DNA of 38,364 bases from Myxococcales bacterium. GTDB taxonomy: Bacteria; Myxococcota_A; UBA9042. Below the pieces are notes generated by a model. The model searched no databases, was not told where the DNA came from, and worked only from the letters and a program-made list of their open reading frames with translations. Positions 18,213-28,326 of the stretch are shown piece by piece (within the stretch, counting starts at the first letter, position 1; each line of letters begins with the position of its first letter). The stretch covers positions 1 through 38,364 of the forward strand of contig JAGSHB010000039.1 in assembly GCA_023954815.1 (NCBI GenBank), read 5' to 3'. The position numbers were made by a program, and so were the translations under genes.

Positions 18213-19163
18213 CTACAGGTCCAAAATGGACCCGCGTGGATCATAGCCCAAGGCGAGCTCAGCGGAGACGGGCTGCAACTCCTCATCCCCATGCAACATC
18301 ACGTAGTCACTACGCATACCGTGACACCATTGTCGCACGGCGCAGCCCTCGCAGCGGGCGACGTAGATCCCCTGCTCGATGGAGCTGGTCTCCAACATGA
18401 ACACGTGACCGCCCGGGTTCACCACTGCCAGATCCATGCCGGCCGCGTCGAACTGCATGTCCCAGTGGGTCGGCGGCAGCATGCACTGTGGCGTATTCAG
18501 GCTGCAGACGGTCGCTCCCAGGCGCTTGGCCACGTCACGAGCGGCGATCATCGCGGGCACACAATCACTGATCCGCGGAACCAGTCGCCGCAGATCGCGG
18601 CTCCCCTGATCGACCAGCGAAAACAGCCAAATATTGAAGTGTACCAGCCCCAGCTTGGCGTAATGTTCCACCAGCTCAGGCAACTCTTGCCAATTGCGCG
18701 CGGTCATCAGGAAGTCGCCTTCGAGTCGCAGCGGATGGTCGGCGCTCACCTCGCGGAGCCGATCGAGTCCTTTCGTCAGCAGTTCGTGAGAGCGCGGCGT
18801 ACGATTGAGGGCGTCGTGAACCTTGGGATCGAGGCTCTTGAGGAGCAGGTTGACCTCGTTCATTCCCGCGGCACATGCCCGCTCAGCGAAGCCCTCATAG
18901 GCGAATAGCATGCCGTTGGACTGCACCTTGATGCGCTCGTAGCCGAGGTGCTTGGCCAGCCGCAGGGTCTTCAGAAAATCGCGACGCAGGGTGGGCTCAC
19001 CACCCGAGAGCCACAGGTGTTTCGCTCCTTTCTTTCTGCCGTAGTGAAGCCAGCGCTGCACTTCTGGCCAGTCCATCTGGGCCTCGGCGTCAGCAGAGCA
19101 GGAAAAGCAGCCGGAACAGCGGCAATTGCAGGCGAAACCAGGCGACAATTCGATCCAGCGCAT
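18213..19163 (-). CDS. Radical SAM protein with C-terminal SPASM/twitch-like Cys cluster
   Basis: 316 residues. The N-terminal CX3CX2C (Cys12, Cys16, Cys19) binds the SAM-cleaving 4Fe-4S cluster, and LSGGEPTLRRDF is the SAM-binding GGE motif. Near the C-terminus CEGCAVRQWC (CX2CX5C, about 271-280) is the kind of motif that holds an auxiliary cluster, as in peptide- and protein-modifying members; further Cys lie in VCSLNTPQC. The start has GAGGAG just upstream; a longer frame 23 codons earlier has no such site. It is the third minus-strand gene after two kinase genes, 114 bp from the second, so it may be read from the same transcript. No precursor peptide gene was found next to it and its substrate is unknown. 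Confidence 0.88.
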   Translation of the reverse strand: MRWIELSPGFACNCRCSGCFSCSADAEAQMDWPEVQRWLHYGRKKGAKHLWLSGGEPTLRRDFLKTLRLAKHLGYERIKVQSNGMLFAYEGFAERACAAGMNEVNLLLKSLDPKVHDALNRTPRSHELLTKGLDRLREVSADHPLRLEGDFLMTARNWQELPELVEHYAKLGLVHFNIWLFSLVDQGSRDLRRLVPRISDCVPAMIAARDVAKRLGATVCSLNTPQCMLPPTHWDMQFDAAGMDLAVVNPGGHVFMLETSSIEQGIYVARCEGCAVRQWCHGMRSDYVMLHGDEELQPVSAELALGYDPRGSILDL

Positions 19164-19277
19164 GACACTCCTCACAGCTCGCCGTGGCCGCGATTGAACG
19201 TGGGTGATTGCGGTAGCGCTGGGAGTCAGCACGGTGGGGATCGCGCCTTTTTAGGCTAATCGACGGAAGCGGCAAGC

Positions 19278-20237
19278 TCAACTCACTTTGGCTGCGTCGC
19301 CGACCAGCGTCACTGTCTCGCCGGTCGGGTCGGTGACACGCTCTCCCCGATCCTCAGCCGCCCGCGCGATGGCATCTGTAACCGGTTCGTATTGCGCGAC
19401 CAACGTGGCCAACCCGGCGGCGCTGCCGTGGGTGCCCACAGAGGTGATCAGGGCGCGTGCCGTACAGCGCGTCTCTGGGATGGACGAAGGCAACCGTAGG
19501 GCTGTCGCGAGCAGGGACGCAAGCTCGGCGGACACCTGCTGGAGTGCTTGATTGACCACCGGCAGATCCAGCTCGCAGCGGGCCGCACGCCCGCGCAGAA
19601 CGGCCCGATCTCCCTGCCCCAGCGGAGACTGGCCTGCGACCAGCCGCACAACCAAGAGCGCCAGACTGAACAGGTCGCTATCTGTCGTCCGCGGAAGTTC
19701 ATTTGCCGCTTCTGGGTCGACAAAAGCAGGCGTTCCGGCGCCAATCGGCCTGGACGGGCCGCCAACAACCGTCGCGAGTCCGAAGTCGATCAGACGCACA
19801 TTTCCAGTGCGATCCACCAGGGCATTGCCAGGGGTGATGTCACCGTGAAGAACCCCCGCTTGATGACAGGCGTCGAGGGCGCGGGCCAGATCAGCCAGCA
19901 CCGCCAAGGCTGCGGGAACAGCCAGCGGTTTGCTGCCGATGAGCTGGGACAAGCTCACCCCATCAACAAGCTCCAAAGCCAGCCATGGCAGCTTGCGGGT
20001 ATGCCCACTGTCGACCAGACGCACGATATGAGGACTCTCAATCCGCCCCAGCGCGCGCCGCTCGGCCTCGAATGCACCGAGAGCCGCCGGCCTGTCCGCC
20101 CACATCGGTAGCAAGCGTTTTAGCGCGACCACCTGACCTGTTTCAGCATGGGTAGCCCGACGTACTTCCGCCGCGCCGCCCAGACCGAGAACCTGCCCTA
20201 GATGCCACGCGCCAAAGGTGAGCGGGACGTCTGTCAT
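19278..20237 (-). CDS. Soluble Ser/Thr protein kinase
   Basis: 319 residues, a Hanks-type kinase with little beyond the catalytic core. Visible are a Gly-rich loop (GLGGAAEV, 18-25), Lys40 in VALK, an alpha-C glutamate in FEAERRALG, HGDITPGN with Asp133 and Asn138 in the catalytic loop, and DFG at 151-153. HGD in place of HRD marks the non-RD type. There is no transmembrane helix or PASTA domain, so it acts in the cytoplasm. Its ATG is 3 bp after the TAG of the large kinase/sigma-54 gene, so the two are almost certainly translated from one mRNA. Its target may be that regulator; this is inference from position. Confidence 0.92.
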   Translation of the reverse strand: MTDVPLTFGAWHLGQVLGLGGAAEVRRATHAETGQVVALKRLLPMWADRPAALGAFEAERRALGRIESPHIVRLVDSGHTRKLPWLALELVDGVSLSQLIGSKPLAVPAALAVLADLARALDACHQAGVLHGDITPGNALVDRTGNVRLIDFGLATVVGGPSRPIGAGTPAFVDPEAANELPRTTDSDLFSLALLVVRLVAGQSPLGQGDRAVLRGRAARCELDLPVVNQALQQVSAELASLLATALRLPSSIPETRCTARALITSVGTHGSAAGLATLVAQYEPVTDAIARAAEDRGERVTDPTGETVTLVGDAAKVS

Positions 20238-20240
20238 GGG

Positions 20241-23200
20241 CTACATCACCTTATAAGCGCGCAGCTTGTTGTAGAGCGTGCCGCGATCGATCCCGAGACT
20301 CATCGCAGTCTGGCGCTTGTTGCCGCTCATCTGCTCGAGCCGGTCCATGATGATGCGCTGCTCCAGGTCAGCCAGCGTGCCCTCCGACGGCAGGACGCCG
20401 CCCGTCGGTTGACTGGCGCCACCAGGCACTTGGCCGCCGCGCTCCAACAACCCGGCGACATCACCCGCGTCCAAAGTGTCCCCCTCGGCGAAAATACAGG
20501 CGCTTTTGAGGAACATCTCCAACTCACGCACGTTGCCCGGCCATGAATAGCGCTCCAGCACCCGCAGCGCCCTGGGCGTGATGCGCGACACATCTCCGAT
20601 ACCCGCCTCCCGGTGCTGACGCAGGAAGAACTCCACCAATACCGGGATGTCACCCACCCGAGACCGCAGTGGCGGAATCATCAGATCCACCACCCGCAGC
20701 CGATAGAGCAAGTCCTCGCGGAAGCTGCCTTCGCGGACCATCTCATCCAGATCGCGATGGGTCGCTGCCAGCACCCGCACATCGACGCGGCGAACCCGAT
20801 TGCCACCGACGCGCGTCAGCTCGCCGGTCTGCAACACGCGCAGCAATTTGACCTGCATGGCGAGCGGCATCTCCCCGATTTCGTCGAGAAATAGCGTGCC
20901 ACCATCCGATTGCTCAAAGAGTCCACGACGTTCTGCGACGGCACCTGTGAAAGCACCGCGAACATGGCCGAAAAGCTCACTCTCCAGCAGGTTCTCTGGC
21001 AACGCGCCGCAGTTGATGGCGACAAAAGGCCCGTCTTTTCGGCTGCCAGTGAAGTGAATCGCGCGCGCAACCAGCTCCTTGCCCGTGCCGCTCTCGCCGA
21101 TAATCAGGACGCTAAATGGATGGTCGCGCACCCTGTCCATCAGGGAAAAGAGGCGATTGAGCTGCGGACTCCGGCCCTTGATGGCGTCGTAGTCGCTGCG
21201 CCGGGCCAACTCGTGACGCTCGGCTGCCAGGGCCTCCCGTGCACTGCTCAGGGCGTCGGAGGTACTCTCGAGTTGCTCCTGCAGCTGGGCGTTGAGCTCC
21301 TCGACCTCCGACTTGCTCCGCGCCAACGCGGATTCACTGGTCTTGTAGCGGGCGATCATCCGAGCCGTGTTCAGCGCGATCGCCGCTTGGGACGCGAGCG
21401 CCTCGAGCACGGCCGCTTGCTCGTTGGAAAACGCCCCCGAGGTGAAGCGATTGTCGACGTACAACACGCCGATCGTCCGGCCACGCAGGTTCATTGGCAC
21501 ACACAAGATCGACCGCAAATTGGCGGCGTGCACACTGTGATGGCTCTGGTACCTGGGGTCGGCCTGCGCATCGATGGACAGCACCGGCTCGCCGCGCGAA
21601 AACACCTCCAGCGCGATGGAGTGACTGAGCTTATGGGCCGGTTTCTTGAGGTTTTCGTGATCGAGGTTCCGCGCAACAGCGATGTCGAGATCGTCGGGAC
21701 CGGGCAGATGATCGGCGTCCGGCGCATCCCGCGTGTCGAGCAAGAGGAAGCCCCGTTCGCCGCCAGTGAGCGCTACCGCAGCGTCCATCAACACTTCGAG
21801 CAGACGCGCCATGTCGTGCTCTGCGCTGAGGCGACGATTGAGCGCGAGGACGGCCGAGAGCGTGCTACGCCCCCGAATACGACTGGTCTCACTGAGCTCG
21901 GCGGTCGACGTCATGCTGGGCCCGTTGAGCAGGCGAAGCAGCATCCGGGTGGCGCGATGATCGGGCGCGTCCCGTAAACGTCGGCCTCTGGCAGCGTCGA
22001 GTGAGCCGATGACCCGCTCCATGCGCGCAAGCTGTAGGTCGGCGACGCGAGAAGCCTCACCACGGCGGCCACGCAGCGCCAAGACCAACGCCCTGTCGAC
22101 CTCAATGGCCAGCGTGGTCATGCCCTTGCCTGCCGGTAACCCCTGCGCGGCGCTATCGAGGTGCTGGGCGGCATCACGCAACGCGGACTCACCATTGTCT
22201 GGGTCGCGATCGAAGCGCGCCAATGCCACACGACCGGCGAGATGGGCTGCACGGGCACACAGCTCTTCGCTACTGAGGGATTCGCCAGCGGCAGCCACCT
22301 CGGTTGCAACCCGCTCTGCATCATCGAGTCGACCGGCGCTGAGGTGCTGCCAACCACGTTCGAGACGGATCTCTCGCAGCTCATTGCTCGCCCCGGCTTC
22401 GCGGAGAGCGGTCTCAGCGGCGACGATCCAGCGCTCGGCCTCGGTCGGCCTGCCCCCACGGCGCGCGAGCTCGGCCAGCACACAGCAAACATTACCCACG
22501 AGGTAGTGATTGCCGACCGCGCTCAAGTCGGCGTAGGCGGCCTTCAGATCGGCTTGTGCATCCTCGACGTCACCGAGCAACGCCAGCAGATTTCCGCGGT
22601 TGTTGAGCGACCGGGTCAGCGCCCCGGCATTGCCGGCTTGGCGCGCGCTGGCGATCACACGGTCGTAGCCCGTCAGCGCGCGGCCGAGATCGCCTGCCTC
22701 GTGATCAATCGTCGCGATATTCATGGTCATGTTGACCACTCGGGCCCGATCTCCGGCGGTTTCAGCCAGCTTTCGGCTTCTGTCATAGGCGGCGCGGGCC
22801 GTCTCCAGGTCACCTGTCCGGTGAGCGACCAACCCGAGCCCAGCCACCGCAGCGGCCTGCACAGCGAGGGGCGTGTCGCCGGCGTCCAGGGAGATGAACG
22901 CGTCGCGCGCCTCGTCGAGCTGGCCGCCGTAGTAGGCAGCCAGCGCGGCAAGGTAGCGGAACTGCGTGTGGAGTTGCGGCCGACCAAGGGCGGCATCCAC
23001 CCCCGTTGTGACGTCCGTCGCAGCGATGCGAGATTCGCCCTGCCAAGTTCGTGCGAATGCCCGCCAGAGAAGGGCGAGCGCAGCTAGATCTGGCCACGGT
23101 CCCGATTCGGGGAGGGTGGAGGCGTGCAGGGCGGCATCCGCCGCAGAGATCGCCGCGGGGTAGTCACCGCGCCGGAAAGCCAATTCGGCGCGCACGACCT

Positions 23201-25280
23201 GCACATTTGGGTCATCACCGGCAGTCGCGCCCTCATCGATGCGCGCCTGTGCTGCCGCAAAGCGGCCAAGAGCAACCTCGGCGCGAACCGCTGCGAGTCG
23301 CACGTCGCTCGCAACGAGCGGCGTCTCCTGGCGCGTATTTGCACTCAGCCAACCTTCGGCCAGCACGAGCGACCGTTGCGCCTCGGCGTGTTGGCGTAGT
23401 CGCTCGCAGACCTTGTGTACGGCGCTGGCGGCTGGAAGCGGCTGTGTGCCGTGAAAAGAGGCGACCACTTGCATCGACAGCGCCGTGGCCGGATCTCGAT
23501 CGGCCAACCACTTCGCACGTAGCTCGGCGGCCTGAGCCAGCGCGTCTGCGGGCAGTAGCTCAGACCACCGCCGCGCCTCGGCGGCGCTGATGCGCAGACC
23601 GCCGCCTGGCAGCTTTCGAATCGCCGGGCGCGATCTGAACAGAGGCGGCATCGGATCGCCATCTTGACCAGGCGCGCAGGTCCGAGCCACAGCGAGATGG
23701 CAGAGCGGCGCGAGCTCAGCTTCCGTCGCGTCGCTGAGATCATCGTATGCCATCCCCAATACGCCAGGCAGGTCAGCAGCGACCCCGGTGGCCTCCACCC
23801 TGTCGGGGGATTGGGCGACAGCGGCGTCGCGCAGGAGGTGAGCGGCCAGACGCCATATGCGCGTGCGATCGGTGCCAACCTCTGTGGCGATGGCGTCGCA
23901 CAACGCAAGATCCCAATCACGGCCTCCGTCCGCCGCGTGCAGCGCCGCCGCGACCTCTTCCGAGGTGCACGCTGGCAAAGCGATCTGCGGTACGGGCAGG
24001 TCCGGCGAATGGTCCGCGAGTCCGACACAGACGATCCGTGGACCACGACCACCGAGAATCAACAGGCGCGCGACCGCGGCACCGACCACTTCTGGCAATG
24101 CATCGCAGTCGTCGATGAGCAACAACCCGTCTTCATCTAGGGCGGACACGATGCGCGCGAGACGCTGGTCGACATGAGCGGCGACCTCTCCGCCCGGCTC
24201 GCCGAGCGCTCCTGCCTGGGCAGCGATCTGGCCAAACGCCGCGCCAGGGACCGCCAATCTCCCCTGCCGCACCAACTCGGACTCGACACGGCGCAGCGGA
24301 TCGGCGCCCGGCAATCGCGTCGGCTCCAGCCAGACCACATCGCCTTTTGCCGCGAGCGCCAGTGCCCGCAGCGCGCCGGTGCGCCCCGCGCCTTCCTGAC
24401 CATCGATGGCCACGACGCGACGCTGCTCGGGCCAGCCGAGCGCGGGTTGCCCCTGCCACTTGCCCCATCGCCAGGGGCGGTCAGAGAGGGCTTCGAGTCG
24501 CTCAGGGCGCGCGATGTGAGCCTTGGTGTCTGTGCACCACGCTCGCAGCGCAGCCTCGGCGTCAACGGGCCGATCGACGCGCCGCGGTCGCAGCCACGTC
24601 GCGATGTGGCTCACCAAATGAGCGTGTGGTGCATTCGGCGGGACCGCCGGCGCCGCGCTGTCTTGAGGAAGGGCTGCTGGATAAGCCGGCCATGGCGAAT
24701 CGAGACCGAGGGACCGCCACAGAGCGAGGCCAAACGAGAACAGGTCATCCCTGGGATCGACGCCTTCACCGCGCAAGCGCTCCGGGGCCGAAAATGCCGG
24801 TAATCCGGCGCCCCAAGCTGCAACCTCGCCTGGACTTTGTGCCAATCCAAGATCGAGCAGGGAGACGTGATCGTCGCTGTCGACCAGCATATTTCCGGGG
24901 TGTAAATCGCCGTGAACCAACCCAGCAGCGTGCAGCGCCCGCAGCGCCTCCAGCCCCTCAGCCACGACCTGAATCAGGCGGTGTTCATCACAACCAGCGA
25001 GCGCATCCGTGAGATTGGCGCCGGGCCGTCGCTCCATCACCAGCGCAGCCGCGCCGTCCACACCCGGCGCCAGCCACGCCACCGGCGTCGGCAGCGCAGC
25101 GCACGGCACATCGAGCAACGCCCGGTACTCGCGCTTGAGCGCCGCAATCTGATCGCCATCGTGGGCACGCGTGTGTTTGAGAACGACTGTCTCGCCGCCC
25201 CCGACCCGCCGGGCCAGCCACACTTGGCCGCCGCCACCCTCGCCGATCAACCTTTCCGCCCGCCAACTACCGAAGCGCAT
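20241..25280 (-). CDS. Ser/Thr kinase - NTPase - TPR - GAF - sigma-54 activator fusion protein
   Basis: 1679 residues. Residues 1-250 are a kinase: GEGGGGQV loop, Lys35, HGDLHPGN (123-130), DLG in place of DFG (143-145). At 294-301 GQEGAGRT is a Walker A variant and LLLIDDCD (386-393) a Walker B, as in STAND-like NTPases. Helical TPR-like repeats fill about 600-1080. A GAF domain (about 1150-1308) and a coiled coil lead to the sigma-54 AAA+ domain: GESGTGKE (1395-1402), GAFTGA (1442-1447), Walker B LFLDEIG, and [10 protein letters not shown] Fis-type helix-turn-helix ends the protein (about 1650-1679). So one chain can sense, phosphorylate, bind DNA and open sigma-54 promoters. GGGGAG precedes the ATG. 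A divergent sigma-54 promoter lies next to it. Confidence 0.95.
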
Positions 25281-25411
25281 CTGCTCTCCCCTGGAGTGAT
25301 GAATCTTGGAACAGTAGTGGAAGGATTGAACATACCGGCGACAAGCGTCAACTCTGCGTAAAGCGCAAAGGCTGCTGAAACCGCGACGAGATCGACCTAG
25401 CTGCGGGATTT

Positions 25412-25428
25412 TGGCACAATGATTGTAA
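25412..25428 (+). promoter_or_regulatory. Sigma-54 (-24/-12) promoter of the twin lipoprotein genes
   Basis: TGGCAC (25412-25417), five bases, then TTGTAA (25423-25428). The -24 element is a perfect match and the -12 element differs from TTGC in one base, with correct spacing. Transcription would start near 25440, about 30 bp before the lipoprotein start codon. The short inverted repeat GATTG-TAAC-CAATC (25421-25434) overlaps the -12 region and could be an operator. The gene of a sigma-54 activator starts 132 bp away on the other strand. Confidence 0.62.
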
Positions 25429-25469
25429 CCAATCCTACCCGCGATGATCTTTTGACAGGCAGAGGTCCC

Positions 25470-25925
25470 ATGTCTATCCCCAACTACGCTGGCACTCCCA
25501 TGGTGATTTGGTCACCGCAGCGTGACGACGGCCGGGTGCGAAAGCAGACGTCCCGCCGGCTAGACCGTACGCTCATGGCGCTGCTGGTTGGGTCGTTGCT
25601 AGGGATGACTGGGTGCGTGGTCAACCCGGTTCCAACGCCTGGGGACAAGGCCGCCGTCTCCAATGACACAGGCTTCCAGTTCGACAATGACGCCATGACA
25701 GCGGCGGATACGGGCGCGTCCCACACGGATACCGGCGGGGCGGGGACCAGTGACGCCAACAGCGCCGAAGACACGGGCAGGGCGAGCGATGCGGGAGCGA
25801 CCGACGCCAGCGCGGTCGATAGTGGCGAAGACGATGGTGTGGGCGATGCGGCCGATTTGCCTGACGCCGCAACTGCTGACGGGATGACTGCCGATGGCGG
25901 TCTCGTCACAAGCGATGGGGAGTAA
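25470..25925 (+). CDS. Acidic lipoprotein, first of a tandem pair
   Basis: 151 residues; no family recognised. A longer than usual N-terminal region with several Arg leads to a hydrophobic stretch and a lipobox ending GMTGC. The mature protein starts CVVNPVPTPG and is otherwise low in complexity and acidic, built of Asp, Ala, Gly, Ser and Thr (DTG, DAG, DAS units) with no cysteine after the lipid site. It is likely a disordered surface or periplasmic tether. AGAGG sits 4-5 bp before the chosen ATG; an ATG 17 codons earlier overlaps the predicted promoter. The second gene follows after 3 bp. Confidence 0.75.
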   Translation: MSIPNYAGTPMVIWSPQRDDGRVRKQTSRRLDRTLMALLVGSLLGMTGCVVNPVPTPGDKAAVSNDTGFQFDNDAMTAADTGASHTDTGGAGTSDANSAEDTGRASDAGATDASAVDSGEDDGVGDAADLPDAATADGMTADGGLVTSDGE

Positions 25926-25928
25926 GCC

Positions 25929-26252
25929 GTGAAGCAACTAGCTGGCATATTGATAGGTTTACTGATCGTCTTGGGCGGCTGCGTGGTCAATCCCGTGCCC
26001 ACGCCCGGTAATACGGGAACAGGCGGCGGGGTGACGGACGCAGGCGCCACTGCGAGCGATACCAGCGCGGGCACAGACGCTGGCGCCTCAGACGCAGGCG
26101 TGGATGCGGGAACGCAGGACGCCAGTGAAAGCGATACCATCTCAGGAGATGCCGGCGCGGAAGACGGGGCAGGAGATGCCGGCGCGGAAGATGGCGCTGA
26201 CAGCGACCTGGATGGGCTGGAAGTCGACGGTGGGCAGCTAGACGCAGGCTAG
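25929..26252 (+). CDS. Acidic lipoprotein, second of a tandem pair (GTG start)
   Basis: 107 residues. A short signal peptide ends in a lipobox (IVLGGC). The mature protein starts with the same ten residues as its neighbour, CVVNPVPTPG, then becomes an Asp/Ala/Gly-rich tail with repeated GDAGAEDGA units. The start is GTG, with GGGGAG about 6 bp upstream inside the end of the first gene, so the pair is one operon. No known domain. The shared N-terminus suggests duplication and a common anchoring or sorting signal; the tails have diverged in length. Confidence 0.75.
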   Translation: MKQLAGILIGLLIVLGGCVVNPVPTPGNTGTGGGVTDAGATASDTSAGTDAGASDAGVDAGTQDASESDTISGDAGAEDGAGDAGAEDGADSDLDGLEVDGGQLDAG

Positions 26253-26267
26253 TCGCATGCTAGTGGG

Positions 26268-28097
26268 TCACAGCACGCGGGCCGTCCTCACCGCATGGGC
26301 AGATGTCTTTGGGGTTAGCCCTTCGAGGCGCGCGCGATCGGCGGCGGCCCAGCGAGCCCGATCTGGCGAATCATTGTGGTACACGTCGGGATAGAATCGG
26401 ACGCGCCCATTGGCACCAACATCTGCCGTCCAGTACACCAAGTGCACGTCGACTTTCCGCCGCAGGGGCTTCCACTTGTTGATGTACCTTTTCATCATTT
26501 TGTCCCACTTTTTCTCCGTAATTGCGCGCTTGTGGGGCTGTTTCAACAGGTACTGAGCCAGCTTGTCGGCATCCTGAACCCGCACGCAACCATGACTTGT
26601 GGTGCGGCGTGGACGCTGAAAGGCCCACTGACTCGGCGTGTCGTGCAGATAGACCAAATGCTGATTGGGAAAGAGGAACTTCACCCGCCCGAGCAAGTTG
26701 CCGGCGCCTGCCTTCATCACCAATGTTGTGCCGGCCTTTGAGGTGCGCTGCTCGAACCCATGTTTTGCGAAGTAGTCGGGGTCGCGTTTGACCTTGTAGC
26801 GGTACTCGCGCCGAATCGATGTCGGCACGACCCACTCGGGATTGAGCACGAGGTAGCGCAGACGTGAGCTAATCAGCGGCGTTTTCAGACCGGGCACCCA
26901 ACGTCCACGACGGCGCTTGATGCCTTTACCCACCTGGGTTCTGTGCTGGCGCATCAACTTTCCATCCCGCCAAACATCGAGCCGAAAAGCGGGAATATTG
27001 GCGACCAATACATCGCCCGTCGCCCTCACCGCCGTATCCCGAACGCGCTGCAAGGCGAGGCGAATTGTGGTCACGCGTTCACTCATGGGCACGGCGAACG
27101 CGCGGAGCGTGGCCTTGTCGAGCAGACCGTGGTCTCGCAGCCCACGGTCCCGCTGCCACGCCCGCAATTGTGTGTGGGTGGGAAGGGGTAGCACCGTCTT
27201 GCGCACGCGGCGGCGACGCTTTCGCTTGGCAGGTTTCGGGGGCTCAGGCTGCGGTGCGAGTTGGGCGGCACAGTAGCCTTCGAAACACAGGCGCGTCCGG
27301 ACCATCTCTTTGTGCGCCGCCGTGATCCGACGAGCCCATTTGCGCCGCAGCTTGCGCTTTTTCCAAGCGTATCGATGGGCGACGGGCATCTCAGCGGGAA
27401 GCGCAGGCATCGAAAGGGTAGTGAGCTTGCGGTAGCGCCCCAGGGCGCTCACCAGGGCGATGTAGGGCTGCCAGCCGCCAGGCCCCAAAGCGGTCAGCCA
27501 TTGTTGCACCTGCGGCTCAATCTGATGGGGATGGGTCGCCAGCGCCGCGACTTGTGCGACGGCACGGGCCCTGCGATTGGCGTGATCCAGCGCACTGGCT
27601 GCCTTCATCTTGCGCGAGGGGCGCTTGAGGTGGGGGGGCAGCGATTGGGAACGGGCGCCAAGTGCGGCCCCGTCGACAAAGAGATGGTGCGCCCAGACCA
27701 CGACATCTAGCCAGCATCCGACCCGCTGCGGCTCGCTCAGCGGCTCCCGACACAAGCGCTGGACCAAGCCGCCTCGCTCATTGTCGTCGGCGATCATCCC
27801 ATGTTTCTGGGCCATCACCAGGAGGCGGGCGATGCCACCGGCCGGGCGCTGAATCTGACCACTGGTCTGGAGTATTAGCCGTTTTGGCGGGACATCATTG
27901 GGAAGTTGAATCTCAACTTCTCCCTTGGAAATCAAGGCTCTGACTAGTTCTGCCCGCTCTTTCAGTTCGCCTCGCAATCGGGTTGGCGCGATGTCTCCAC
28001 GACTGAGCGCATGACCCAACGGCATCGCCGCAGCAGCCACCAATGTGACAGCCACTAGTGCTGCAACATGGACACGTGGCTGGGACCCCGCTGTCAT
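26268..28097 (-). CDS. L,D-transpeptidase, YcbB/LdtD-like, with peptidoglycan-binding domain
   Basis: 609 residues. A signal peptide (AALVAVTLVAAAAMPLGHA) sends it to the periplasm. The middle holds a PG-binding-type helical unit (THTQLRAWQRDRGLRDHGLLDKATLRAF is its region). The YkuD catalytic domain follows, with LHDTPSQWAF and the active-site block TTSHGCVRV. The tail containing FYPDVYHND is typical of the YcbB class. It should form 3-3 crosslinks between peptidoglycan stems or attach proteins to them. A long Lys/Arg-rich linker precedes the PG-binding unit. GGAGG 4-5 bp upstream selects this ATG over one 50 codons earlier. It lies 229 bp downstream of the HEAT-like gene. Confidence 0.92.
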   Translation of the reverse strand: MTAGSQPRVHVAALVAVTLVAAAAMPLGHALSRGDIAPTRLRGELKERAELVRALISKGEVEIQLPNDVPPKRLILQTSGQIQRPAGGIARLLVMAQKHGMIADDNERGGLVQRLCREPLSEPQRVGCWLDVVVWAHHLFVDGAALGARSQSLPPHLKRPSRKMKAASALDHANRRARAVAQVAALATHPHQIEPQVQQWLTALGPGGWQPYIALVSALGRYRKLTTLSMPALPAEMPVAHRYAWKKRKLRRKWARRITAAHKEMVRTRLCFEGYCAAQLAPQPEPPKPAKRKRRRRVRKTVLPLPTHTQLRAWQRDRGLRDHGLLDKATLRAFAVPMSERVTTIRLALQRVRDTAVRATGDVLVANIPAFRLDVWRDGKLMRQHRTQVGKGIKRRRGRWVPGLKTPLISSRLRYLVLNPEWVVPTSIRREYRYKVKRDPDYFAKHGFEQRTSKAGTTLVMKAGAGNLLGRVKFLFPNQHLVYLHDTPSQWAFQRPRRTTSHGCVRVQDADKLAQYLLKQPHKRAITEKKWDKMMKRYINKWKPLRRKVDVHLVYWTADVGANGRVRFYPDVYHNDSPDRARWAAADRARLEGLTPKTSAHAVRTARVL

Positions 28098-28326
28098 TTT
28101 GCCTCCGGAGCGGTCGTGGAAAACACGGGTCCAATGGCCTGCACCGGACCTCAACCGCGCTGGACAACAAGGTGCGCCGATTCGGCCGTCAATGCCAAAA
28201 AATACTGTGATGCCAACGCGCAAGCACGGGTTATCGGGCGCACGCAACGGATACAGGGGATGAATGGGCGCGTGGGCTCCGGGAGGTTAACGCTGGGAGG
28301 TCAGCTTTCGCGTCTCACACATCGCG

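Follow-up and report, generated by a model that had tools for sequence, protein, structure and literature searches.

The 189-bp gap between an activator gene and two lipoprotein genes in the window (the whole stretch of DNA analysed, 38,364 nucleotides) is very probably a sigma-54 control region, in which the divergently encoded activator would bind tandem palindromes and turn on the lipoprotein operon. A sigma-54 promoter fires only when driven by a dedicated activator, and its pairing with a divergent activator gene is a textbook arrangement. The sequence-only reading had proposed that the kinase/sigma-54 protein binds this gap and activates the lipoproteins. Comparison with relatives supports such a circuit because the site is conserved in 15 of 16 related gaps, tandem palindromes lie at enhancer distance, the activator carries GAFTGA and a helix-turn-helix (HTH), rpoN is present and the same elements accompany an unlinked lipoprotein gene (L053). 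The features are as follows.

18213-19232, minus strand: radical SAM protein, 339 aa, next after the small kinase and in the same direction
19278-20237, minus strand: small Ser/Thr kinase, 319 aa, its gene immediately following that of the activator
20241-25280, minus strand: activator gene, 1679 aa, identified by Pfam domains, motifs and full-length orthologs
25281-25469, 189 bp: divergent gap, bounded by the start codons of the activator (ATG, complement, 25280) and of lipoprotein 1 (ATG, 25470)
25297-25313, strand unassigned: predicted upstream activating sequence (UAS), first palindrome, TGATGAATCTTGGAACA, from PWM match and conservation
25316-25332, strand unassigned: predicted UAS, second palindrome, AGTGGAAGGATTGAACA, from PWM match and conservation
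25412-25417, plus strand: -24 element TGGCAC, with matching GG in 15/16 related gaps
25418-25422, plus strand: spacer AATGA between the -24 and -12 elements
25423-25426, plus strand: -12 element TTGT, with GT as in E. coli pspA
25438, plus strand: predicted transcription start (+1), from the element positions and the usual sigma-54 register
25470-25925, plus strand: lipoprotein 1, 151 aa when read from ATG 25470; lipobox ...LGMTGC-VVNPVPTPG, the part after it rich in Asp/Ala/Thr/Gly
25929-26252, plus strand: lipoprotein 2, 107 aa, GTG start, lipobox ...VLGGC-VVNPVPTPG

The promoter site and its chance level

The full motif, TGGCAC-AATGA-TTGTAA, was found at 25412-25428 on the plus strand (TTGTAA at 25423-25428), with the spacing and the 132-bp distance from the activator start that had been described for it. 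The GG at 25413-25414 and the G at 25425 are separated by ten nucleotides, and TGGCAC is perfect. The part that departs from the consensus is the -12 dinucleotide, which is GT and not GC, so that the site alone constitutes modest evidence. The C that typically, but not indispensably, follows the -12 G has been reported to be conserved in 96% of sigma-54 promoters and to help restrain basal transcription (PMC4551910). TTGT is not disqualifying, because it also occurs in the proven pspA promoter of E. coli (TGGCACGCAAATTGTATT).

The scoring weights were chosen manually from the known consensus. Among dinucleotide-shuffled versions of the gap, 0.6% scored at least as well on that strand, and 1.6% did so when both strands were counted. 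Since the 38-kb window holds three more positions with a score no lower, the promoter site on its own is not decisive. At the genome scale, TGGCACN5TTGC occurred 36 times versus 9 for the reversed control, a count weakened as proof of sigma-54 use by the fact that several matches fall within tandem repeats. Specifically, a repeated TGGCACCTnGTTTGC element clusters in tandem at 11-45 bp (L061 123-200 on G000:C17 and L062 1911-2057 on G000:C21), inflating genome-wide counts of sigma-54 patterns.

The short inverted repeat noticed at the -12 region does exist (GATTG-TAAC-CAATC, 25421-25434) and is not conserved in relatives, on which ground it was ruled out as an operator. A third, weak UAS-like match (TGCGGGATTTTGGCACA, 25402-25418), seen in the window only, overlaps the -24 element.

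Conservation of the site in relatives

Relatives of the activator were searched with its N-terminal 249 aa, and 16 species-level loci were defined by the same kinase/sigma-54 activator standing divergent from a short lipoprotein gene. Conservation in relatives had been suggested as a check of the promoter, and a sigma-54 site was present in the gap of 15 of these loci. Its -12 pair was GC in 13 (GG-N10-GC), GG in L025 and GT in the window; in sister species, the same gap reads CGGCAT-GTTGG-TTGCAT (L009/L013) or TGGCAC-GCCTG-CTGCAC (L014). Shuffle tests on 14 loci gave p values between 0.0005 and 0.034 in 13 of them, and their Fisher combination gave p 5e-21, related loci not being fully independent. 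A chance match, with the lipoproteins using a sigma-70 type promoter, would agree with the 0.6-1.6% of shuffled gaps and the three equal places in the window, but this positional conservation makes it extremely improbable.

In the remaining locus, L018 (G011), activator, palindromes and lipoprotein were present and no recognisable sigma-54 site was found in the gap; there, just 224 bp separate the lipobox from the activator match. The gap DNA was identical in L012/L045 (G009:C458) and in L013/L031 (G003:C328), genomes assigned to different genera, which suggests that G009:C458 was misplaced in the G009 bin. A second module, belonging to G009 itself, is found on C253 (L046).

Tandem palindromes upstream of the promoter

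Side-by-side reading of the gaps revealed tandem 17-bp palindromes that the sequence-only reading had not mentioned. Their family consensus is TGTnGnAAATTnCnACA, with a perfect copy in L017 (TGTGGAAAATTTCCACA). In those gaps of the family that were inspected, they adjoin the activator, with a centre spacing of 19-21 bp as a rule. A UAS matrix built from 12 sites of the same family, into which those of the window, L018, L046, L053, L077 and L078 were not entered as such, found the pairs in the window, L018, L046 and L078. In the genome of the window, the genus-level tandem pair occurred only in this gap, even when up to 3 mismatches were allowed.

The pair stands where activators of this kind usually dock, roughly 95 bp ahead of the -24 element and within the distance of about 80-150 bp expected of a UAS. 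In the window, the centre of the pair lies 97 bp upstream of -24; over 20 cases the distance had a median of 94 bp (range 79-126), with the palindromes on the upstream side. Helical phasing between UAS and promoter showed no significant periodicity (Rayleigh p 0.07-0.28).

The window palindromes were weaker matrix matches than those of other genera. Together with the GT found at -12 in the window alone, where a C keeps basal transcription in check (PMC4551910), and with the longest lipoprotein 1 ORF opening upstream at 25419, this weakness could mean that the promoter has partly decayed in the source species, leaving the operon leaky or driven from elsewhere and no longer under tight sigma-54 control. 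We regard such decay as unlikely, given that the proven pspA promoter has the same TTGT, that the -24 element is perfect and that the sister species keeps exactly the same 97-bp spacing.

The same elements at unlinked loci

A distance of 16-52 bp separates the palindromes from the activator start codon, placing them where the activator's own promoter may be, and many enhancer-binding proteins are reported in Myxococcota (PMC12316311). The sigma-54 site could then be real but driven by another activator, the palindromes serving an unrelated repressor or the activator's sigma-70 promoter. Two observations make this quite unlikely. First, the palindromes also stand beside activators that have no adjacent NPVPTP lipoprotein (L019, L026 and L078). 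Second, they recur at the same distance before unlinked sigma-54 promoters (L053, L069 and L071-L074); this recurrence led us to reject the reading of the conserved block as merely the activator's own promoter.

The clearest case was G007, whose activator carries palindromes without an adjacent lipoprotein gene of the NPVPTP kind. Its lipoprotein gene, the neighbour of a peroxiredoxin-like gene on a different contig (L053), is preceded by TGTGGAATTTCGCTACA-TG-TGTGGAAATTTGCGACA at 94 bp from TGGCACACTCCTTGCTCC, a near-perfect sigma-54 site. Enhancer and promoter therefore stay with the lipoprotein gene.

Beyond the activator gaps and L053, a search of relatives for tandem pairs returned eight further places in or near the family. 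At five of the eight (L069 and L071-L074), a sigma-54 site scoring at least 26.7 lay at 79-97 bp, against a base rate of 0.4% for such a site (binomial p 8e-11). The gene that follows each site encodes a lipoprotein or a secreted protein; among these products are two Kazal-type lipoproteins, a DUF2330 protein and further lipoproteins. These candidate regulon members belong to G005, G007 and G008, and may be served by the same activator or by a paralog. The remaining matches (L063, L064 and L070) had no strong sigma-54 site nearby and were treated as chance. We give even odds to the broader proposal that a kinase/TPR/GAF-sigma-54 activator of uncultured Myxococcota controls, from the tandem palindrome, a previously undescribed, dispersed regulon of NPVPTP lipoproteins, Kazal-type inhibitor lipoproteins and DUF2330 proteins, perhaps as a response that remodels or protects the surface.

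The activator and the proposed mechanism

The activator has the following domain organisation.

Residues 8-198: Ser/Thr kinase domain (Pfam)
Between the kinase and the TPR region: degenerate ATPase-like stretch
About residues 805-1079: TPR region
Residues 1154-1303: GAF (Pfam)
Residues 1368-1533: sigma-54 AAA+ domain with GAFTGA (PF00158, E=6e-70)
Residues 1635-1676: Fis-type HTH (PF02954, E=5e-9)

The sigma-54 AAA+ domain with GAFTGA, Walker A (GESGTGKE) and the HTH are the parts expected of an enhancer-binding protein, and the catalytic loop of the kinase (HGDLHPGN) is also present. Full-length orthologs were 42-79% identical (42-48% outside the genus), and every one of them carried GAFTGA or GSFTGA. 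The 6.44-Mb draft genome contains rpoN (PF04552 match, G000:C24).

Taken together, the activator would bind the two palindromes at 25297-25332, probably as dimers, while its kinase, TPR and GAF parts would report a signal, presumably cytosolic. The AAA+ domains would then assemble, and the GAFTGA loops would remodel sigma-54 RNA polymerase at TGGCAC-N5-TTGT about 97 bp away, so that transcription would start near 25438 and lipoproteins 1 and 2 would be made. Because the palindromes lie so close to the activator's start codon, their occupation probably also damps the activator's own transcription, by analogy with PspF at pspF/pspA.

The small Ser/Thr kinase gene follows the activator in most relatives and the radical SAM gene in some; the two are kept together in several genera, and both proteins may be part of the signal path. 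The radical SAM protein resembles HxsC/MoaA/viperin-type enzymes and reaches no cut-off. A defence-system reading was discarded, the PADLOC matches being generic kinase, AAA+ and radical SAM ones.

The lipoprotein genes

Lipoprotein 2 begins 3 bp after lipoprotein 1, and the two are likely to belong to the same operon. Neither matched a Pfam or NCBIfam family. The longest ORF of lipoprotein 1 opens at ATG 25419, inside the promoter spacer and ahead of the predicted +1 (~25438), and use of the promoter would therefore make ATG 25470, just upstream of which AGAGG is found, the real start. The twin genes described by the sequence-only reading are indeed adjacent here, but the pair reflects a local duplication, most relatives having a single gene. 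The mature N-terminus of the divergent lipoprotein in relatives is C-x-(V/I)-N-P-V-P-T-P, with NPIPVP in L015.

In the window, C-x-V-N-P-V-P-T-P is encoded at 25611-25640 and 25977-26006. The motif is also carried by otherwise unrelated lipoproteins (L055-L059), most without a sigma-54 site, and could act after the lipobox as a signal for sorting or export. A variant lipoprotein (L049 on G000:C248 and L051 on G002:C133) has GVNPVPTPG about 20-30 residues past the lipobox cysteine; a conserved NTGLSQAGAQDFGLFRQILE stretch comes next. Convergent with the lipoprotein genes is an L,D-transpeptidase (YkuD) gene (26268-28247), which the genus retains; CinA is the neighbour in several other genera. 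Anchoring of the lipoproteins by this enzyme through a C-terminal Lys was dismissed, since inspection showed no Lys at that end.

Comparison with known systems

Through these analyses, a guess from a single sequence has become a regulatory module that is conserved, can be tested and has named candidate binding sites. They provide regulatory context for a lipoprotein family without a Pfam or NCBIfam name, and a way to trace which genes a kinase-fused sigma-54 activator controls in bacteria for which metagenomes are the only source. Earlier work describes sigma-54 as a controller of the bacterial exterior (PMC3162934) and the sigma-54 regulons of Myxococcia as rich in cell-wall genes (PMC12316311). 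The likeness lies in the output of presumed envelope proteins, here lipoproteins; the portions consulted of both papers contained no description of the activator, the UAS or the lipoprotein family. Similarly, a literature search of incomplete coverage returned neither the activator architecture nor the UAS nor the lipoprotein family.

Among the closest known parallels is the E. coli phage-shock locus pspF/pspABCDE, in which an activator gene likewise stands divergent from an envelope-related operon with the same TGGCAC-N5-TTGTA promoter. Two UASs have been reported at pspA, from which PspF represses its own gene (PMC3709507). PspF (about 325 aa) is held off by PspA and has no kinase, TPR or GAF part, unlike the present activator, and the psp output includes PspA, whereas here it consists of low-complexity lipoproteins. 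The activator scored 256.5 bits against the PspF model TIGR02974, below the cut-off of 443.55, as it was below every NCBIfam equivalog cut-off among the matches listed. The locus resembles psp in its layout without belonging to the phage-shock system. With enhancer-binding proteins of the NtrC/NifA type, the activator shares GAF, AAA+ with GAFTGA and a Fis-type HTH in the same order, and differs from them in the additional N-terminal Ser/Thr kinase, ATPase-like and TPR parts, which span ~1100 residues. Altogether, the circuit is ordinary in kind, an enhancer-binding protein acting with sigma-54, and what is new is the regulator and its regulon.
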